NCBI RefSeq assembly: GCF_029278565.1
Contig: NZ_CP119559.1
Location: 2,728,001 to 2,792,000 of the forward strand
From: Haloarcula halophila
GTDB lineage: Archaea > Halobacteriota > Halobacteria > Halobacteriales > Haloarculaceae
DNA length: 64,000 nt
Direction of reading: 5' to 3'
How positions within the stretch are numbered: position 1 is the first letter of the stretch; every line of letters starts with the position of its first letter. The notes beneath the pieces were generated by a model. That model was not told the DNA's origin, did not search any database, and saw nothing but the letters and a program-made list of their open reading frames with translations. The position numbers and the translations under genes are program-made. Positions 1,622-53,767 of the stretch are shown here, in pieces.

Positions 1622-3180
1622 TCAGTTTTCGTCAGCGTCGGTATCGAACCCGCTGGACGGCCGCTCGACGTCCACAAACTCTAGCCGTGCACCGCCTTCG
1701 TCGCTCGTCCCCACACGGACCGTCCAGCCGTGTGCGTCGGCGATCTCCGCGACGATCGAGAGCCCGAGCCCGGTTCCCGTCTCGCTGGTGGTGTAGCCGA
1801 CCTCGAACAGGTCGGCGTCATCGGGGTTCGGGAACCCGGGACCGTCGTCCTCGATGAAGAACCCGGTGTCGTCTGGGAGTTGCCCGACGGTAACTGTCAC
1901 TGACGGTCCACCGTGTTCGATCGCGTTCCGGAAGACGTTGGCCACCAACTGTCGTAAGCGTCCCACGTCACCCAAGACCACCCCGGGTGGAGAGTCGATC
2001 ACGAACGTCGCTCCCGGGGCGTCGACCGAACTCCAGGCCGTCCGGAGGATGCCGTCGAGTTCGACTGGTTCGGGACTGACGACCTGTTTGCCCTGTCTCG
2101 CCAGTGCGAGTCCGTCTTCGATGAGGCTATCCATCCGCTGGAGCGCCTCGTCGATGTCGTCGAGGTGTGGCGTCGGGTCGTCGGCCCGGCGAGCGAGTTC
2201 GAGCCGCATCGTCGCCAACTGCAGCGGGTTCCTGAGGTCGTGACTGACCATCTTCGAGAACCGTTCGAGCCGCTCGTTCTGGCGTTTGACCTCCTCCTGG
2301 CGCTCCTTGCGGGCCGAGATATCACGGGTCACACCGATGAGTCCGACGACGTCCCCGTCGGGGCCGTGCCAGGGGACCTTCGAGGTGAGGTTCCACTGGT
2401 CGATCATCGGCAGGTATTCGACCTTGTTCAGGATCGGCTCGCCCGATTCGATGACGTGGCTGTCCTCTCGGTGGGCTCGCAGCGCTTGTCTGCCGGCGAA
2501 GAGCCCGATCTCGGGGCGGTGTTCCCGATGAACTCCTCCAGTGGCTCCTCGAAGTAGCCGGTTCCCACGTAGAGGTGACGCGCGTCGGCGTCCTTGATAT
2601 AGAGGTGGACTGGAATCGACTCCATGATCGTATCGAACAGCCGGCTCTTGTGGAGGAGTTGCGAGAGGTAGCCCGCATCGATGCCCTCGGCCAGCAACTC
2701 CTCGACAGCCCCGGAATCGACGTTCGGCGTTGGGTTCTCGTCGAGGGGTGGTGTCGCCAGTCCTCCCCGTGCGCTCGAATCCAGTGCGGCGTCTTCCACG
2801 GTGGCCGCGAGCCGAGCCATCGCGTCACCGTCGGTGCCGTCGACGAACTCGTCGACTGCAGTCCCGACGGCCTGTTCCGCGATCGTCGGGTCCGTGACGG
2901 TCGTAAACAGGACGATCGGGAGACAGGGGTGTTTCTCACCGATCGCGTCGGCTGCCTCCACGGCGTCGAACCCCTCAGTGCCGTGGCGAACGACCAGACA
3001 GTCGATATCGGGCCACGCCAGTCGGTCGATGGCGTCGCTGACAGACACACTCCCGTATCCTTCGATGGCACCCTGCCTTTCCAGCGAGTCCGCGAGTCGA
3101 TCCCCCCGTGCCGAGTTGGGATCGACGACGAGGACGTGGGTCGACCCTTCGGTGGAGTGGGCCGACTCGCATCGTTCCAT
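1622..3180 (-). pseudogene. PAS-containing sensor histidine kinase, interrupted by a -1 frameshift
   Basis: Two leftward frames together give one kinase of about 520 residues. The upstream part (from ATG 3180) has a receiver-like domain (VLVVDPNS; Arg where the phospho-Asp should be) and the start of a PAS domain ending in EEFIGNTAP. The downstream part continues the PAS (VTRDISARK), then a HisKA box with the phospho-His (VSHDLRNPLQL), then a HATPase domain with an N box and G boxes (EDDGPGF, GTGLGLSI). The frames join at the G run 2513-2516 (C run on the coding strand): one extra base restores GNTAPEIGLFAG and continuity. Without it translation stops about 30 codons later, before the kinase core. 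The cause is either a sequencing error or a genuine loss. Confidence 0.85.
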
Positions 3181-3250
3181 CGTCCCGAAGGTACTCGGTA
3201 GACTAACTTAACTGGCACCATTTTTTACTGCGGCCGTTGATACTGAATGT

Positions 3251-14841: not shown

Positions 14842-15000
14842 ATGCCAGTTATGGCGAGTGGTGACTTCTCCATCCACCGGGAAGGGTGTGAGGAGTTCGA
14901 CGACGGGATGCCCATCTCGTCGCTCCCCGACGAGGTGACCTCGATCGACGACCTGGACTGTACGTGCTGGAGCGAGTTCGCCTCGCTTGAGGAGATCTAG
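14842..15000 (+). CDS. Small acidic protein (52 aa) with a Cys-x-Cys motif
   Basis: A short frame, ATG 14842 to TAG 15000. Its composition is haloarchaeal: many Glu and Asp residues, with SIDDLD and SLPDEVT segments. It has three cysteines, one at GCEEF and a pair in DCTCWS, which might bind a metal or form a disulfide; no family is recognised. A well-placed TATA box 28 nt upstream and GC-rich third positions support expression. A second ATG at 14851 would remove three residues. It lies between top6A and NAD kinase; their functions give no hint of its own. Confidence 0.6.
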   Translation: MPVMASGDFSIHREGCEEFDDGMPISSLPDEVTSIDDLDCTCWSEFASLEEI

Positions 15001-15056
15001 TCCGACAGGGTCCGAACCCGTGGCTGGTTTATGACCGCAGCGCCGTAGCTATCGGT

Positions 15057-15908: not shown

Positions 15909-16189
15909 CGCCGACCCAGTGAGAACAGCACGGGTGCGATCACGAGCAACACGAGGCCGAACAGCTTGTACTGGAACGCCGACGTCAGGACGCTTCCGGT
16001 GCTGGGCTCCATCGTGGCTGTCGGGAGGATCAGCAGTACAACGCCGATGCCAAGCGTGTGCAGCCCCAGCAGACGGAGCGATCGCGTCGGAAGCACTCCG
16101 ACAGCGCCGAGGACGAAGCTCAGTAACAGGACGTCGCCAACGTTGTAGTTCAGCAGGAAGCTGTCGATGAGTTGCAGCGGCGCGAGCAT
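15905..16189 (-). CDS. Small integral membrane protein (94 aa)
   Basis: A 94-residue protein with about three membrane segments (residues 18-35, 42-60 and 72-91) and a basic C-terminus (LGRR). No recognised family. It is convergent with nadK, overlapping by 4 nt. A minus-strand TTTAAT box near 16222-16227, about 35 nt before the ATG at 16189, would serve as its promoter. Function unknown. Confidence 0.65.
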   Translation of the reverse strand: MLAPLQLIDSFLLNYNVGDVLLLSFVLGAVGVLPTRSLRLLGLHTLGIGVVLLILPTATMEPSTGSVLTSAFQYKLFGLVLLVIAPVLFSLGRR

Positions 16190-16300
16190 TCCTATCCCGA
16201 ATCTCGCCGTGACGCGATCATTAAACTTCCGTTACAGCCGTACCGGAGCCGGGAGTTCCCCGCTATAGTTATATGTACACAGCGGGCACTACAGGATACT

Positions 16301-16864
16301 GTGACAGAGGCTACTGTCCTCGTCGTCGACGACGAGACGGAGGTCGCGGACGTCTACGCGTTGCGACTCCGGAACGAATACGAGACCGAGACAGCTTACG
16401 GCGGTGGGGAAGCCCTGGAGATGATCGACGACGACATCGACGTCGTCCTGCTAGATCGACGGATGCCGGACATCTCGGGCGACGACGTGCTCGACGAGAT
16501 CCGTGACCGCGATCTCGGGATCCGCGTCATCATGATCACAGCCGTCGATCCGGACTTCGACATCATCGACATGCCGTTCGACGACTACCTGTGCAAGCCC
16601 GTCGACAAGGACGACCTCGTCGCCGCGATCGAACAGCAACTCGCCGCTCGCCGCTACGACCAGCGACTGACCGAGTACCTGGAGGCGACGTCGAAGCTCG
16701 CGCTCCTGGAAGCCGAGAAGACGCCACAGTCGATCGAAGACAGCGACGAGATGGGACAGCTCCAACAGCGTGCCGAACGGCTCAGAGGTGAGATGGACGA
16801 GGCCCTCGCGGAGTTCGAGGACATCGAGACGGCCTTCGAAGAGATCGGTCGTCGACCCGGGTGA
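16301..16864 (+). CDS. Response regulator with HalX output domain
   Basis: A 187-residue cytoplasmic response regulator. The receiver is intact: VLVVDDE with the acidic pair, the phospho-acceptor Asp in VVLLDRRMPD, the Thr in MITAVD and the Lys in CKPVD. The C-terminal 70 residues (YDQRLTEYLEATSKLALLEAEK and a long helical tail) match the haloarchaeal HalX domain. GTG at 16301 is taken as start: it gives VTEATVLVVDD at the receiver start, and a TATA-rich stretch at about 16262-16275 sits some 30 nt upstream. A frameshifted paralogue lies 1.3 kb away. Its kinase is unknown. Confidence 0.88.
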   Translation: MTEATVLVVDDETEVADVYALRLRNEYETETAYGGGEALEMIDDDIDVVLLDRRMPDISGDDVLDEIRDRDLGIRVIMITAVDPDFDIIDMPFDDYLCKPVDKDDLVAAIEQQLAARRYDQRLTEYLEATSKLALLEAEKTPQSIEDSDEMGQLQQRAERLRGEMDEALAEFEDIETAFEEIGRRPG

Positions 16865-17565: not shown

Positions 17566-18137
17566 GTGTCAGCCTCCACCCGCGGTCGCGTGTTGATGTC
17601 GACGACGAGCCAGCGGTCGCGGACACGCAGGCTGCTCGCCTCGCGGGGCACTACGAGACGGAGACGGTTTACGGGGGCGAGGCGGCCCTGGACAGGGCCG
17701 GGCCGTCGTTCGACGCGGTCTTGCTCGACCGGCGAATGCCCGATGTCCACGGCGACGACGTGCTCGACCGACTCCGCGAGCGCGGCTACGAGGGGGTTGT
17801 CGTGATGATAACGGCCGTCGATCCCGACCTGAACATCCTGGAGATGGGGTTCGACGATTACCTCTGTAAGCCGGTCGACCGGGAGACGCTACTGGCGACA
17901 CTCGATCAGCACCTCTCGCAATCCGACCAGGACGACCGTCTCGACGAGTACTTCCAGATCACGGCGAAGCTGGCGGTCCTCGAAGCGGAGAAGCCGTCCA
18001 GACAACTCGAAGACAGCAGTGAGTACCGGGCACTGCGGGACCGTGCCGACGAACTGCAAGCGGGGCTCCGGGACGCGATCGACGACTTCGAGGGGATCGT
18101 CGACGCCCACGAGTCGATCCGCCGCGAGAACGACTAG
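17566..18137 (+). pseudogene. HalX response regulator, interrupted by a -1 frameshift
   Basis: Closely related to the regulator at 16301: same receiver (VVLLDRRMPD-type, here AVLLDRRMPDVHG), same CKPVD Lys motif, same HalX tail (LAVLEAEKPSRQLED). The plausible start, GTG 17566, is about 26 nt after an ATACTTA box, and begins VSASTRGRVL. Within the first beta strand the frame is lost at about 17597: one added base gives VLxVDDEPAVAD. As written, translation from that start leaves the receiver frame after ten codons, and the downstream frame has no usable ATG or GTG nearby. Either a sequencing error or a recently damaged gene. Confidence 0.8.
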
Positions 18138-24959: not shown

Positions 24960-25739
24960 TCAGGCGAACTGCCGGCGGTTGAAGTACGCCACGTGGTAGG
25001 TGTTGCTGACGACCCGCCACAGCGGGATCCCGACGAGCCAGTACGCGAGCAGTCCCAACACGAGGACGCCGCCGGCGAGCGGGTTGCTGCCGGCGGTGAG
25101 TTCGCTCAGTCCGGCGCCGGTCACGACCAGGACCGCGAGCGGGAGACCGAGCATGACGGCCCCCAGTCCCGTCTTCAGTATCGTGAACCCGAGCGTACTC
25201 AACGGCGCGCTGGCGGCCAGTGATAGCGACGTGGAGAACGACTCCAGAACGCCCGCGCCGCTGACGATAGCGACGTTGAAAAACTGGAGTCCCAGGTAGC
25301 CAACGGCGACGGCGAGACCCACCAGCGCGAACACGAGGAGCATCGGCGTCGCCGAGGACGCCGATGCCGCCGATCCGGGTTCCGTCGCCGTCAGACCGAC
25401 GGTAACGGTCACCGCGACGGCCACGACGATCAGGACGACCGACGGGACCGCCAGCAGTCCGTACGCCCCGAGCATCCGGAGGTAGTGCTCGCCCAGGCCG
25501 TCGGTGAAGTCCGAGGCGTCGGCTCTCCCGTCCCGACCGGCGTAGATCAGCGAGAGCAGTCCAGCGATGAAGGCCGGATAGACGAACAACGATACGAGAG
25601 TTCCTACCAGCGGAATGAGCCCCAACACGAAGTTGACGACCGCGAGTACCGCCATCGAGAGCGCACCCAGCAGGACGATCACCGGGTTGTGACGCAGCAA
25701 CGTCCCCGTGTCGGAGAGCGCTTTGATTGCAGCTCCCAT
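24960..25739 (-). CDS. Polytopic membrane protein (DUF4013/DUF7847-like)
   Basis: 259 residues with about six membrane helices and an Ala/Val-rich sequence; short acidic loops (AGRDGRADASDF). The segment VLESFSTSLSLAASAPLS resembles the motif VIESLKNSVDLVGDN in the membrane proteins near 52 and 53 kb, so these belong to one family. The stop lies 21 nt from the convergent flavoprotein. Upstream, an inverted repeat at 25745-25767 overlaps the expected transcription start. Function unknown. Confidence 0.7.
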   Translation of the reverse strand: MGAAIKALSDTGTLLRHNPVIVLLGALSMAVLAVVNFVLGLIPLVGTLVSLFVYPAFIAGLLSLIYAGRDGRADASDFTDGLGEHYLRMLGAYGLLAVPSVVLIVVAVAVTVTVGLTATEPGSAASASSATPMLLVFALVGLAVAVGYLGLQFFNVAIVSGAGVLESFSTSLSLAASAPLSTLGFTILKTGLGAVMLGLPLAVLVVTGAGLSELTAGSNPLAGGVLVLGLLAYWLVGIPLWRVVSNTYHVAYFNRRQFA

Positions 25740-25779: not shown

Positions 25780-27713
25780 TCAAGAGCTATCGACAGTTAT
25801 CCCGCGGATTTCGAAGCGCGCGCCACCGTCCTCGCTCTCGGTGACGGTCACCTCGCCACCGTGGGCCGTCGCGATCTCGTTGACGATCCGCAGTCCAAGC
25901 CCCGTCCCCTCGGTGGACGTGGTGTACCCCTTCTCGAACACCTGCTCGCGCTCGTCGGCGGGAATCCCCTGGCCGTCGTCGGCGACGAAGAAGCCACTGT
26001 CGTCCGAAAGCGGGCCGACGCGGACGGTCACTCCCGCCGTTCCGTCTCCGGCGTGTTCCACGGCGTTCCGAAAGAGGTTCTCGAACAGCTGTCGGAGGCG
26101 GTTCTCGTCGCCTTCCAGCGTAAACGAGTCGACGACGTCCAGCGTCGCCGACTCGTCACTGATCCCGGCCCAGGCCGAGCGGGCGACCGCACCGGCGTCG
26201 ACCGTCGTCGTCTCGACGACTCGGTCGCCCGAGCGAGCGTCAGCGCGTCCTCGATGAGGTCGTCCATCCGTTCCAGTGCCGATTCGACCGTGCTGACGTG
26301 TTCCGGGTCGCCGTCGTACTCGTCTTCGATCAGGTCGAGGCGACCGACTGCGACGTTGAGCGGGTTGCGAAGGTCGTGACTCACGAAGCTCGCGAAGTCG
26401 GCCATCCGGTTTCGCTCGCGTGTCAGCGCCTGCTCGCGACGCTGGCGCTCGCGCTCGTAGCTGACCCAGTTCCCCATCAGTTCGACCAGCGTGACCTCCC
26501 ACTCCGAGAAGGGCTCTGTCCGGGCCGCCTGGTCGTAGAAACAGAACGTCCCGGTCACCGACCCGTCGACGACGACGGGCGTCCCGAGATAACAACGAAC
26601 CCCCTGATCGATAAAGCCCGCTCGGTCGGTCAGTTCGGGTGCCTGTTCGGCGATGTCGGAGAGGACCAGTGTCTCCTCTTCGACGATCGCTCGCTCACAG
26701 TTGGTCGTCGACAGCGGGACCGTATCACCGGGTTTCGGGCCGTTCTCGGGGGTGTCGGTGATCTCGAAGACGTACGTCTCGCCCTCGATACGGGAGAGCG
26801 CACCGAACTCCGTTCCGAGCAGGTCCTTGCCGATGGCAAGCAGCGACTCGACCTTCGTTTCGAGCGGTGTCTCCTTCTGTGCCGTCACACGGTACATCTC
26901 CCTGAGCGCCCGCTCCCGTCGCGTGATCGACTGTTCGCGCGCTACCCGGTCGGTGATGTCCCGAAAGTAGACGGACAGCCCTGTCGAGGAGGGGTACCCG
27001 CGGACTTCGAACCACGTGTCCAGTGTCTCGTACTTGGCTTCGAACACGACGGGGGACTGCTCGTCCATCGCGTCGTGGTACTGTTCGTAGAACTCCGTGC
27101 CGATGGCTTCCGGGAGGACCTCCCAGATGTTGCGTCCGACGAGTTCGTCGGTCGAGACGTGCTCGCTTGCGGCCTCTCGGACGATCTCCCGGCCGCGGTC
27201 GTTGAGATACGTGAACTCCCAGTTCCGATCCAGCGCGAAGAACGCGTCGGTCATACGATCGAGGATCGCCTGCCGTTCGTCCCGCTCCGTGACGACCGCC
27301 GCGACTCGACGCAGGAGCAGGTCGGTCTGTTCTTCGCTCGGCGTCTTCGCTATGTAGTCGGTGACGCCCAGGGAGATCGCCTCGCTGGCGACCGACTCGT
27401 CCCCGTCGTCGGCAAACAGGATGACGGGGAGATCGTCCGCTCGCTCCCTGATCTCCCCCAGCAGTGCCAGTCCGGTCCGTTCGGGGAGCGTCTGCTCCGT
27501 GACGACACAGTCGATCGGCTCCGTCGCAATGAGTTCCAAGGCTTCGGAGACGCGGCTGCAGGTGTAGAGTTCGAAGGGCGTGGTCGCGGCGCTAACTGCC
27601 GCGGTCACCGTCTCCGACCCGTCGCTACCACCGACGTACAACAGCCCGACGGCGTTCGATTCCTCGCTGTCGGTTCGTATATCCCCGACGTGTCCGGGGT
27701 TGTCCATACTCAT
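25780..27713 (-). pseudogene. Sensor histidine kinase (receiver-like, PAS, GAF), interrupted by a -1 frameshift
   Basis: About 640 residues in two frames. From ATG 27713: a degenerate receiver (YVGGSDGS in place of the DD pair; DCVVTEQTLP with Glu instead of the phospho-Asp), a PAS domain (DRMTDAFFALDRNWEFTYLN), a GAF-like domain with a conserved CFYD segment, and the HisKA box with phospho-His (FVSHDLRNPLNV). Translation then loses frame near 26228-26230 at a short homopolymer in LTLAR; the other frame continues (DRVVETTTVDAG) into an intact HATPase with FFVADDGQGIP and GTGLGLRI. One extra base restores a single kinase. Loss of one CTCG repeat unit would explain the shift equally well. Either a sequencing error or a real lesion. 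Confidence 0.82.
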
Positions 27714-45066: not shown

Positions 45067-46815
45067 TCACTCCAGTCGGAGGGTGACAACGGTTCCCTCG
45101 CCGTCGGTGTCGAACTCGATCTCTCCGCCGAGCATCGAGACCCCCCAGCTGACGATCCAGAGGCCGATCCCGGTCGTATGCTCCAGCGACGTTTCCCTGC
45201 CTTTCTGGATCGGCGCGAGTTCTTCGGCTTCGATCCCCGGCCCGTTGTCGCTGATTGTGATCTCGATCCCGCCAGGGGGTAGCAGTTCGACCGTCAGGAC
45301 TACCCTGGGATCGTCCGTCTCGTTGTGTGCTAACGCGTTCTCTAACAGGCTCGATATCACGAGCGACAGCACGCGAGGGTCGGTCTCGACAGTCGTCGGT
45401 GAGGAGGGAAGCACGGCCTCGACGGTCGCGTCCGGAAACTCGGCCCTGAGTTCCGTCGTCCGCGCCTGGACGAGCTCGGTCACGTCGACGGATTCCGTAC
45501 CCGTCTCGGTACCGCGGAGTTGCTCGAACTCCCGTGCCTTCTCGCCGGTCGCCAGCAGCCGGTTTCCGCTCGCTTTGATCGTCTCCGCGGAGGCTTCGAC
45601 CGCCTCGTCGTCGCTACGCCCTTCGATCAAGTCCGCGTGGCCCATGACGACCGTCATCTCGTTCCGGAGATTGTGCCGGATGACTCGGTTGAGTACGTCC
45701 AGCCGCTGTTCGCGTTCACGTTCCCGCGTGATCTCCTGAAAGACGACAGTCCGACCCACGTTTCTGTCTGCCGGATCGGTCAACGGTGAGGTGACCACTG
45801 AGAACTGCCGGTCACGGCCGTCGGTGGTGACGGAGACGGTCTGATGGTCGGCCCCACCTTCCAGGTCGACATCGGCAGCAGTGGTCAGCGGCTCGCCGAG
45901 GACCGACTCCCGTTCCAGGCCGAACACGTCGACGGCCGCGTCGTTGACCGTGACCACGCGGTCGGCTGTGTCGAGGACGAAGGTCGGGCTACCGAGGTCG
46001 TCGATGGCCGATCGCTGGGCCGCCCGCTCAGTCGTCGGGTTCGTCTCGAACATGTTGCTGCCGACGAACGCGTAGCCGTCCAGCGCGATGTGGAGGAGGA
46101 ACAACAACGGCCCGAGGTTGAGCTGTGGAACCGGGCCGACGTTGAACAGCCAGGGCAGTACACCCGCCGCTGGGGGGAGCGTACTGAGCGCGACCGCTGT
46201 CGCCTCCGTTCGATAGAGGGGGCCGTAGCTGACGACTGTTTCGACCAGCAAGAGCGCGCCGATCCCCGTACACCCGAACACGAAGGTGGCCATCAGATAC
46301 AGCAGCGGGCCGACCGTGTATCCGGGGACCGAAAGCCCGAACACCGGTGCCGGCCCGAGCCCGGTCCACAGGAGCGAGTGGTACGGGAAGGTCACGATCA
46401 GCCCCGAGATCGCCGCCGGCGGTGCCAAGATCACTCCCGACTGCCAGCTCCGGGCTGTCGCCGACCGACCGGTGTACTCCAGCGTGAACATCAGAAACAG
46501 CGGGCCGGTCCAGGCGGCGGCTACCAGCCCGACAGCCTCCAGATAGGCACGAAGCGGATAGATGTCGACGAGCAGACCGAACCCGTAGGTGAGACACCAG
46601 AGTGCGGTCGCCAGAAACGAGGTGATGAACCAGTTCACTCCCGGACTGCCGCGGTGACGGATCAGATAGCCGGCCAGCCCGAGCGCACCGACCCCGGCGG
46701 CGACGCTGCCGCCGGCGACCACGGCACCCAGCAGGATATCAGCGACCAACGTCCGGGATGGTTTCGGCGGTACTGTCTTAGCAGTTGTGTCCCTGCGCCG
46801 ACCGGGTCGTCCCAC
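45067..46815 (-). CDS. Sensor histidine kinase with 7TM N-terminus and PAS domain
   Basis: 582 residues. The first 240 contain seven predicted membrane helices, a His-kinase 7TM domain type. Then a PAS domain (ERAAQRSAIDDLGSPTFVLD), HisKA with the phospho-His in IRHNLRNEMTVV, and HATPase with N box (LENALAHNE) and G boxes (SDNGPGI, GIGLWI). The frame is intact, in contrast to the two frameshifted kinases. The start is GTG at 46815 but is uncertain: there is no ATG nearby and no clear TATA box, so an internal TTG near residue 23 is possible. It follows the carB end region on the same strand. The partner regulator is not identified. Confidence 0.82.
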   Translation of the reverse strand: MGRPGRRRDTTAKTVPPKPSRTLVADILLGAVVAGGSVAAGVGALGLAGYLIRHRGSPGVNWFITSFLATALWCLTYGFGLLVDIYPLRAYLEAVGLVAAAWTGPLFLMFTLEYTGRSATARSWQSGVILAPPAAISGLIVTFPYHSLLWTGLGPAPVFGLSVPGYTVGPLLYLMATFVFGCTGIGALLLVETVVSYGPLYRTEATAVALSTLPPAAGVLPWLFNVGPVPQLNLGPLLFLLHIALDGYAFVGSNMFETNPTTERAAQRSAIDDLGSPTFVLDTADRVVTVNDAAVDVFGLERESVLGEPLTTAADVDLEGGADHQTVSVTTDGRDRQFSVVTSPLTDPADRNVGRTVVFQEITREREREQRLDVLNRVIRHNLRNEMTVVMGHADLIEGRSDDEAVEASAETIKASGNRLLATGEKAREFEQLRGTETGTESVDVTELVQARTTELRAEFPDATVEAVLPSSPTTVETDPRVLSLVISSLLENALAHNETDDPRVVLTVELLPPGGIEITISDNGPGIEAEELAPIQKGRETSLEHTTGIGLWIVSWGVSMLGGEIEFDTDGEGTVVTLRLE

Positions 46816-52838: not shown

Positions 52839-53684
52839 CTACAGCGGACTTCCTTCGGTGTCGCTGGGGGCGTCACTGCCCGTCGACGTGGCTCCGCCCG
52901 TCTCGCCGTCGACGGCCTGCTGGTATGCGTCGGTCATCACCGCCAGCGTGTACACCGTTACCCCGGTCGTGAGGACTGTCGAGACGAACGACGGCAGGCC
53001 CGGGAGCGACGGCCCGGAGGCGACCGTCCCGGCTCCGACGCCGACCAGTAGTAGCACGGTGAACAGGATCACTCCCAGGGCGAACACCGCCAGGAAATTC
53101 GATTTCACGTGCCCGTAGCTGTTGCTCAGCGCCTCGAACGGGTTGGCGTCGTTGAGCGCGACCTCCTGGCGAACGAACTCCAGTAGGATCGCCAGCACGA
53201 TCCCGGGGATGAGCAGCAGTACCGCACCGAGCATGACGACGACCGTCGCGACGAGACTCGCGATCAGCGAGTTCAGCGTCGTGAACCCGATGCTGTCGAA
53301 CAGCCCCGAGGGGACACCGCTCTCGTCGCTCGCGAACACCCGGATGCCCAGCACTCTGACGACTTCGGCCAGCAGCGCGGTGAGTACCCATAGCGCCACG
53401 GCAATCGGCAACGAGACCCCGATCGCTTCCGGGAAGAACTGTTCCGGCCCGCCTATCCCGGCACCCATCGGCACCGGAGCGGACGCGGGCGCCTCCGTGA
53501 CCACCTCGGACCACTCGACGCCGGTGCGTGACAGCGCCCGCTCGACGCTTCGAAGGAAGATCGTCTGTGTGATGACGACGTTTGCCACCGCCAGCGCCAC
53601 GAACGCCCCGAGCACTCCGAGGCCGTTCGGCGACGCCAGCTTCTGTGCCCCACCTTTGAGCGAGTCGACGACTCCGATTCCCAT
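52839..53684 (-). CDS. Polytopic membrane protein (DUF7847-like, paralogue 2)
   Basis: 281 residues, about six membrane helices and a Gly/Ser/Asp-rich C-terminal tail. Shares the RQEVALND motif and the AYQQA terminus with the gene at 51999, indicating tandem duplication. No catalytic residues are visible. Probably co-transcribed with paralogue 1, as it lies upstream on the same strand. Confidence 0.72.
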   Translation of the reverse strand: MGIGVVDSLKGGAQKLASPNGLGVLGAFVALAVANVVITQTIFLRSVERALSRTGVEWSEVVTEAPASAPVPMGAGIGGPEQFFPEAIGVSLPIAVALWVLTALLAEVVRVLGIRVFASDESGVPSGLFDSIGFTTLNSLIASLVATVVVMLGAVLLLIPGIVLAILLEFVRQEVALNDANPFEALSNSYGHVKSNFLAVFALGVILFTVLLLVGVGAGTVASGPSLPGLPSFVSTVLTTGVTVYTLAVMTDAYQQAVDGETGGATSTGSDAPSDTEGSPL

Positions 53685-53767
53685 ATTCGCCCCGGGAACA
53701 CGAAATTACAAAACGTCTTTGATACGAACGAAACGCCGCGATCCCGTCCACCACCGGGTCCGAACTG

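Follow-up and report, generated by a model that had tools for sequence, protein, structure and literature searches.

The gene at 25783-27713 of the window (the whole 64,000-nucleotide stretch analysed, C1 2728001-2792000 of a 4.04-Mb genome in four contigs) encodes a sensor histidine kinase whose two halves lie in different frames. On balance, the sequence suggests an ordinary haloarchaeal sensor histidine kinase with one recent null lesion caused by slippage. Slippage between short direct repeats, where the HisKA helix ends, would have removed one CTCG unit; a ribosome would then enter a short wrong-frame tail and stop. The product would carry the phospho-accepting helix but lack the ATPase domain, and would not be expected to autophosphorylate. 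We infer that the four bases are missing from the cell's DNA and not merely from the assembly, and slightly prefer a true mutation to an assembly error. The finding is an ordinary frame lesion, and the data support no system or mechanism beyond that; biologically it amounts to one null allele at the most. A search of a limited literature collection returned no paper on frameshifted histidine kinase pseudogenes in haloarchaea, and we claim no novelty from that result.

Table 1. Features of the window (window positions) and untrimmed overlaps at the contig ends (contig positions).
Feature	Position	Strand	Basis or remark
Sensor histidine kinase gene	25783-27713	minus	start 27713; frame broken internally
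Kinase N part, 495 residues: receiver-like region, PAS_4, GAF, HisKA; ends in LTLAR	26229-27713	minus	Pfam profiles and ORF reading
Kinase C part, different frame: HATPase_c; stop 25780-25782	25780-26226	minus	Pfam and ORF reading
Wrong-frame tail of the kinase as written; stop 26028-26030	26028-26228	minus	ORF reading
Break zone, four bases short relative to all 21 orthologues	26226-26237	minus	orthologue comparison
Broken PAS_4-HisKA-HATPase kinase, -1 at about 2516	1622-3207	minus	Pfam and relatives' alignment
Broken HalX response regulator, -1 at 17597	17566-18137	plus	Pfam and G020 alignment
Whole HalX response regulator	16172-16864	plus	Pfam
Whole 7TM-PAS-HATPase kinase	45070-46815	minus	Pfam
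Overlap	C1 1-51987 = 2986676-3038664		end-to-end comparison
Overlap	C2 1-57989 = 467011-525010		end-to-end comparison
Overlap	C4 1-19435 = 92555-112000		comparison ends where the examined stretch ends

Read on the minus strand from 27713, the frame gives 495 residues ending in EDALTLAR, followed by 66 out-of-frame residues. The HisKA domain of the N part (PF00512, 47.9 bits) contains SHDLRNPL, which we take to be the phospho-accepting H-box. The ATPase half runs in a separate frame from DRVVE (26226) to the stop at 25780-25782, and its HATPase_c match (PF02518, 90.7 bits) is in a frame other than that of HisKA. By ORF reading and orthologue comparison, HisKA and HATPase_c do not share one frame; the break separates the ATPase domain from the HisKA helix. 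What are presumably the H, N, G1 and G2 box motifs read whole on either side of the lesion. The 561-residue frame found one match in its own genome, with no second copy of the site. In the receiver-like region (27330-27713), D has changed to G at two columns that the outgroups conserve, and the PF00072 match begins only at profile position 24; this region is perhaps a pseudo-receiver.

We searched 60 relatives with the 561-residue frame, which joins the true N part to the out-of-frame tail, and obtained matches in 32 of them (E up to 1e-60). Clear orthologues were found in 21 genomes of the same genus (55-74% identity, open frames of 634-993 residues), where the matches start at query residues 2-25 and end at 496-512. 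Compared with these 21 Haloarcula-genus orthologues, identity is 54-76% in the N part and 47-65% in the C part. Both halves lie within a single ORF in 21 of 21, which bears out the first-pass annotation's claim that the kinase is broken at LTLAR/DRVVE, and none of the 21 carries a frame-destroying lesion at this site. In every orthologue, the alignment places exactly two residues between LxLxR and the counterpart of the D in DRVVE. Since the relatives have six bases at the break zone where the window has two, the window is four bases short, a net frame change of -1. A base alignment to the closest genome compared, G020, likewise gave -4 at the break.

CTCG is present twice in the window (26230-26237) and three times, in frame, in G030 (L004), where the site codons are CTC GCT CGC TCG GGG. 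The site codons could be read in 17 of the 21 orthologues; they differ among these 17, and the CTCG tract is absent from most of them. Two causes had been proposed for the break. Loss of one CTCG unit agrees with the deficit of four bases and with the three units in G030. The other, a single base missing from the CGGG run, was rejected, as the resulting protein would fall one residue short of every one of the 21 orthologues.

The gene resembles haloarchaeal sensor histidine kinases (receiver-PAS-GAF-HisKA-HATPase) in Pfam domain order and in identity to the 21 orthologues, and differs from them in a frame break that separates HisKA from HATPase. Pseudogenes with a single recent lesion occur in prokaryotes. 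This gene is like them in having one frame lesion, with the rest conserved and the relatives intact, and is known here from one assembly. The intact orthologues, the conserved sequence on both sides and the three-unit in-frame arrangement in G030 all support a recent lesion. As a measure of rate, we compared changes in the gene's own lineage with those in the G020 lineage at columns conserved in outgroups. The own:G020 counts were 16:12 in the N part and 3:4 in the C part of this kinase; with no faster amino-acid change, the lesion would be recent. Relaxed selection was not detected by these counts, and a recent lesion would look alike.

The two-component genes of the window, identified by PF02518 and PF00072, comprise three kinases and two HalX regulators. 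Three of these five are broken by a net -1 shift, as had been claimed from the letters of the window: the kinase at 25783-27713 by -4 and the other two by one base. The kinase at 1622-3207 has one base fewer than each of six aligned relatives, in the same column in five and a few columns off in one, and its lesion adjoins a run of four G. The HalX break is -1 relative to G020, the sole relative aligned base by base there, and lies shortly after the GTG at 17566, the likely start. On the preferred reading, the companions were broken in independent events of like kind rather than through one shared mechanism.

The broken HalX regulator and the kinase at 25783-27713 are about 7.6 kb apart in the window. 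Of the 21 same-genus genomes that carry the kinase, all but G008 have the two genes on one contig at a spacing of approximately 7-12 kb. In the window, the genes between them encode a CARDB-domain protein, an MMPL protein and a pyridine nucleotide-disulphide oxidoreductase. If both lesions are real, they would constitute a natural knock-out of a gene pair kept together across most of the genus sample.

To judge whether signalling genes are singled out, we compared the window with G020, which is collinear over 60,346 window bases with large matches 82-91% identical. By eye, these aligned bases contain no further clear uncompensated frame change, and the description of the other window genes as intact holds with one qualification, an ambiguous change near a gene end (14997-15021) that failed the codon filter. 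The comparison covers genes with a good match in G020, which excludes, for example, 24960-25739 and 52842-53705. Signalling genes make up about 11% of the coding bases of the window, and the probability of all three breaks falling in them is about 0.001, a post hoc figure for a window chosen for this pattern.

We then audited 504 kb around the window, using 435 G020 genes as references. The first split search gave 35 rows in this genome, most of which we judged to be upstream extensions, run-ons or neighbouring genes. After codon filtering, only the two window kinases were broken; the audit is blind to breaks near gene starts, and the HalX break is known from the G020 base alignment instead. 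A looser GC filter retained C1:2567953 along with the two kinases; the codon filter removed this extra row. Run on all G020 ORFs, the codon filter also returned C1:2875352 (overlapping query pieces) and C1:2720803, neither of which was counted. At C1:2720803, the stretch matching the final 45 residues of a 349-residue G020 ORF is present twice in tandem. A mismatch-phase filter missed the break at 26226-26237 and, in the window, gave 2516 and three intergenic rows (29376, 51416 and 54231); a codon model run without orthologues flagged the break at 26233 and not that at 2516. As the codon model could not separate a frameshift from adjoining genes, we relied on the orthologues.

A wider audit of all stretches examined took in 508,534 bases, of which 29,303 were contig-end and ~479 kb interior. 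The clear interior breaks were those of the two window kinases and of a CorA magnesium transporter gene (C1:1035915, -1 relative to G020); a possible -1 in the N part of one more kinase, C2:177573, is ambiguous. Four candidates were dropped: C1:620894 (a hexapeptide transferase and HhH-GPD, two genes that run on in G020), C1:2707286 (fragmentary alignment), C1:2720803 (the repeated 45-residue tail) and C1:2746862 (a 12-residue piece). In the same region of G020, the codon-filtered audit found four supported breaks and a weaker fifth. The four affect Asparaginase_2, PALP, DUF4129 and one gene without a Pfam match, and none of the three named is a signalling domain. Other assemblies of the genus had one break in the 360 kb audited, a total drawn from eleven sets of which two (L031 and G004) are the same contig and thus partly counted twice.

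We also examined kinases across the genome, using 55 of 57 HATPase places; the two omitted were taken for GyrB and topoisomerase VI by size and position. The list may contain a few non-kinases, and outside the window the counts cover kinases, not response regulators. A place was judged only with a reference of at least 60% identity, which 18 of the 49 interior places lacked, and was called intact when one match covered at least 80% of the reference ORF. Of the 31 judgeable interior places, 27 were intact, two were broken (both in the window) and two were ambiguous, including C1:2109607, where G020 probably has two genes running on as one. Thus, no clear broken kinase was found among the 29 judgeable interior places outside the window.

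Untrimmed circular overlaps were present at the ends of contigs C1, C2 and C4 (Table 1), and none was found between the two 20-kb ends of C3. HATPase and receiver matches are doubled at the contig ends, some with unequal open-frame lengths. Over 129.5 kb aligned, the overlap copies show 71 discrepancies, 56 of them not a multiple of three in length; 34 are homopolymer differences, 27 have CTAG in one copy only and 10 are of other kinds. Since two kinases are intact in one copy and split in the other (C1:48789 versus C1:3035475; C2:27498 versus C2:494623), the assembly makes false frameshifts, kinases included. Gene-fragmenting indel errors of long-read assemblies have been described (PMC8011154; PMC12007338).

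A residual consensus error, in which the consensus of a long-read assembly dropped four bases from a kinase that is whole in the cell, is therefore a serious possibility, although short of probable. Besides the discordant overlaps and the kinases split in one copy, it is favored by the five interior lesions (three in the window, CorA and the ambiguous C2:177573), which are all base losses relative to G020. A single lesion with all else intact is also how an error looks. The contig-end discrepancies, both here and in G020, include tandem-like contractions of 2-3 bases, and G020 has one 4-base difference. Moreover, three breaks in 64 kb with none elsewhere in the filtered 504-kb audit is tighter clustering than independent mutations suggest.

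Against an error, the interior is much cleaner than the contig ends. We found 7 breaks in ~29 kb of audited coding sequence at the ends versus 3 clear ones (4 with the ambiguous one) in ~479 kb of interior, approximately 30-40 times fewer per audited base, which weakens plain assembly error as the source of the window breaks. Homopolymer and CTAG types account for 61 of the 71 contig-end discrepancies, but in alignments with relatives neither mark of raw error, a base lost from a run of at least three or a CTAG site, is seen at any of four interior lesions (2516, 17597, 26226-26237 and CorA). In addition, no 4-base difference occurs among the 10 other discrepancies of this assembly. The break is thus like long-read indel errors in that the contig ends of this assembly differ in such a way, mostly at G/C runs and CTAG, and unlike them in that the kinase site is interior, cleaner, and altered by a 4-base unit rather than in a homopolymer. 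We slightly favor mutation because the interior is clean, its lesions are not of the homopolymer or CTAG type and few residual errors would be expected there. The three window lesions are more likely to be true if error types of other kinds were also corrected, and may be errors if correction was confined to the systematic types.

It is very unlikely that a conserved signalling neighbourhood was shut down in a coordinated way in this lineage, with the HalX regulator and the kinase knocked out and a third gene, the kinase at 1622-3207, decaying nearby. If true, it would be as if one sensory module were useless or harmful in the strain. Selective decay or silencing of signalling genes, with kinases and regulators switched off together in the lineage, is likewise very unlikely. 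It would fit the breaks in three of five two-component genes and in no other window gene clearly, the neighbourhood that the broken kinase and HalX regulator share in 20 of 21 kinase-bearing genomes, and the faster evolution of the kinase at 1622-3207 in its own lineage. The own:G020 counts for that kinase were 2:2 in the N part and 16:3 in the C part, compared with 138:145 pooled over 17 other window genes (of 35 tried, 16 lacked enough outgroups and two had a stop in the coordinates used). The C-part difference has a p of 0.002 uncorrected, or an estimated ~0.05 allowing for ~22 comparisons, and what we take to be the catalytic motifs read intact; of the genes compared, only this one hints at relaxed selection, an acceleration that also speaks for true lesions rather than assembly errors.

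Selective decay is opposed by the 27 intact places among 31, where the sole clear breaks are the two in the window, by the broken CorA gene, which is non-signalling, by the lack of acceleration in the kinase at 25783-27713 or in the HalX regulator (2:1), and by the G020 breaks, none of the three named being in a signalling domain. Similar shifts in unrelated genes, which the first-pass annotation had set against a bias toward signalling genes, do occur in small numbers outside the window, as in CorA. Selective decay thus shows no clear sign beyond the window, and the striking pattern within it comes from a stretch selected for that very pattern.

There is a negligible chance that the CTCG units serve as a reversible on/off switch (phase variation) or as a site of programmed frameshifting. 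One whole repeat unit makes the difference, and gaining or losing units would restore or lose the frame, but two or three units are few for a contingency repeat, the site codons vary among the 17 orthologues and no canonical slippery site was recognized by eye. Phase-variable (contingency) loci carry tandem repeats. The kinase site is like them in differing by one whole tandem unit and unlike them in its two to three units; no long unstable tract was found there, and the tract is missing in most of the 17 orthologues. If the frameshift were programmed, relatives should share the two frames as well as the shift site, and 21 of 21 are single-frame. Of the explanations first offered for the pattern (chance errors, selective decay or variation), errors are possible at these three sites given the false shifts at contig ends, decay is opposed by the 29 kinase places and CorA, and variation by the small number of units.

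The contig-end overlaps provide a built-in, read-free estimate of false frameshifts in such assemblies. Calls of broken genes near contig ends are untrustworthy, and interior calls are far better. In the overlaps of C1, C2 and C4, 27 of 108 CTAG sites are discordant, contributing 27 of the 71 discrepancies, although CTAG makes up ~0.3% of bases. This discordance resembles a trace of base modification carried over into the assembly. In Haloferax volcanii, m4C is reported at CTAG (PMC5867850), and 174 of 217 halobacterial genomes are reported to carry a likely CTAG methylase family (PMC6471742). In the present genome, a strong N6_N4_Mtase match at C1:2594551-2595270 is a candidate modification enzyme. 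The contig ends of G020 also overlap untrimmed, with 32 CTAG-type discordances and many at AGCT and CGAGC/CAAGC-like sites, which hints at a second modified motif in that genome.
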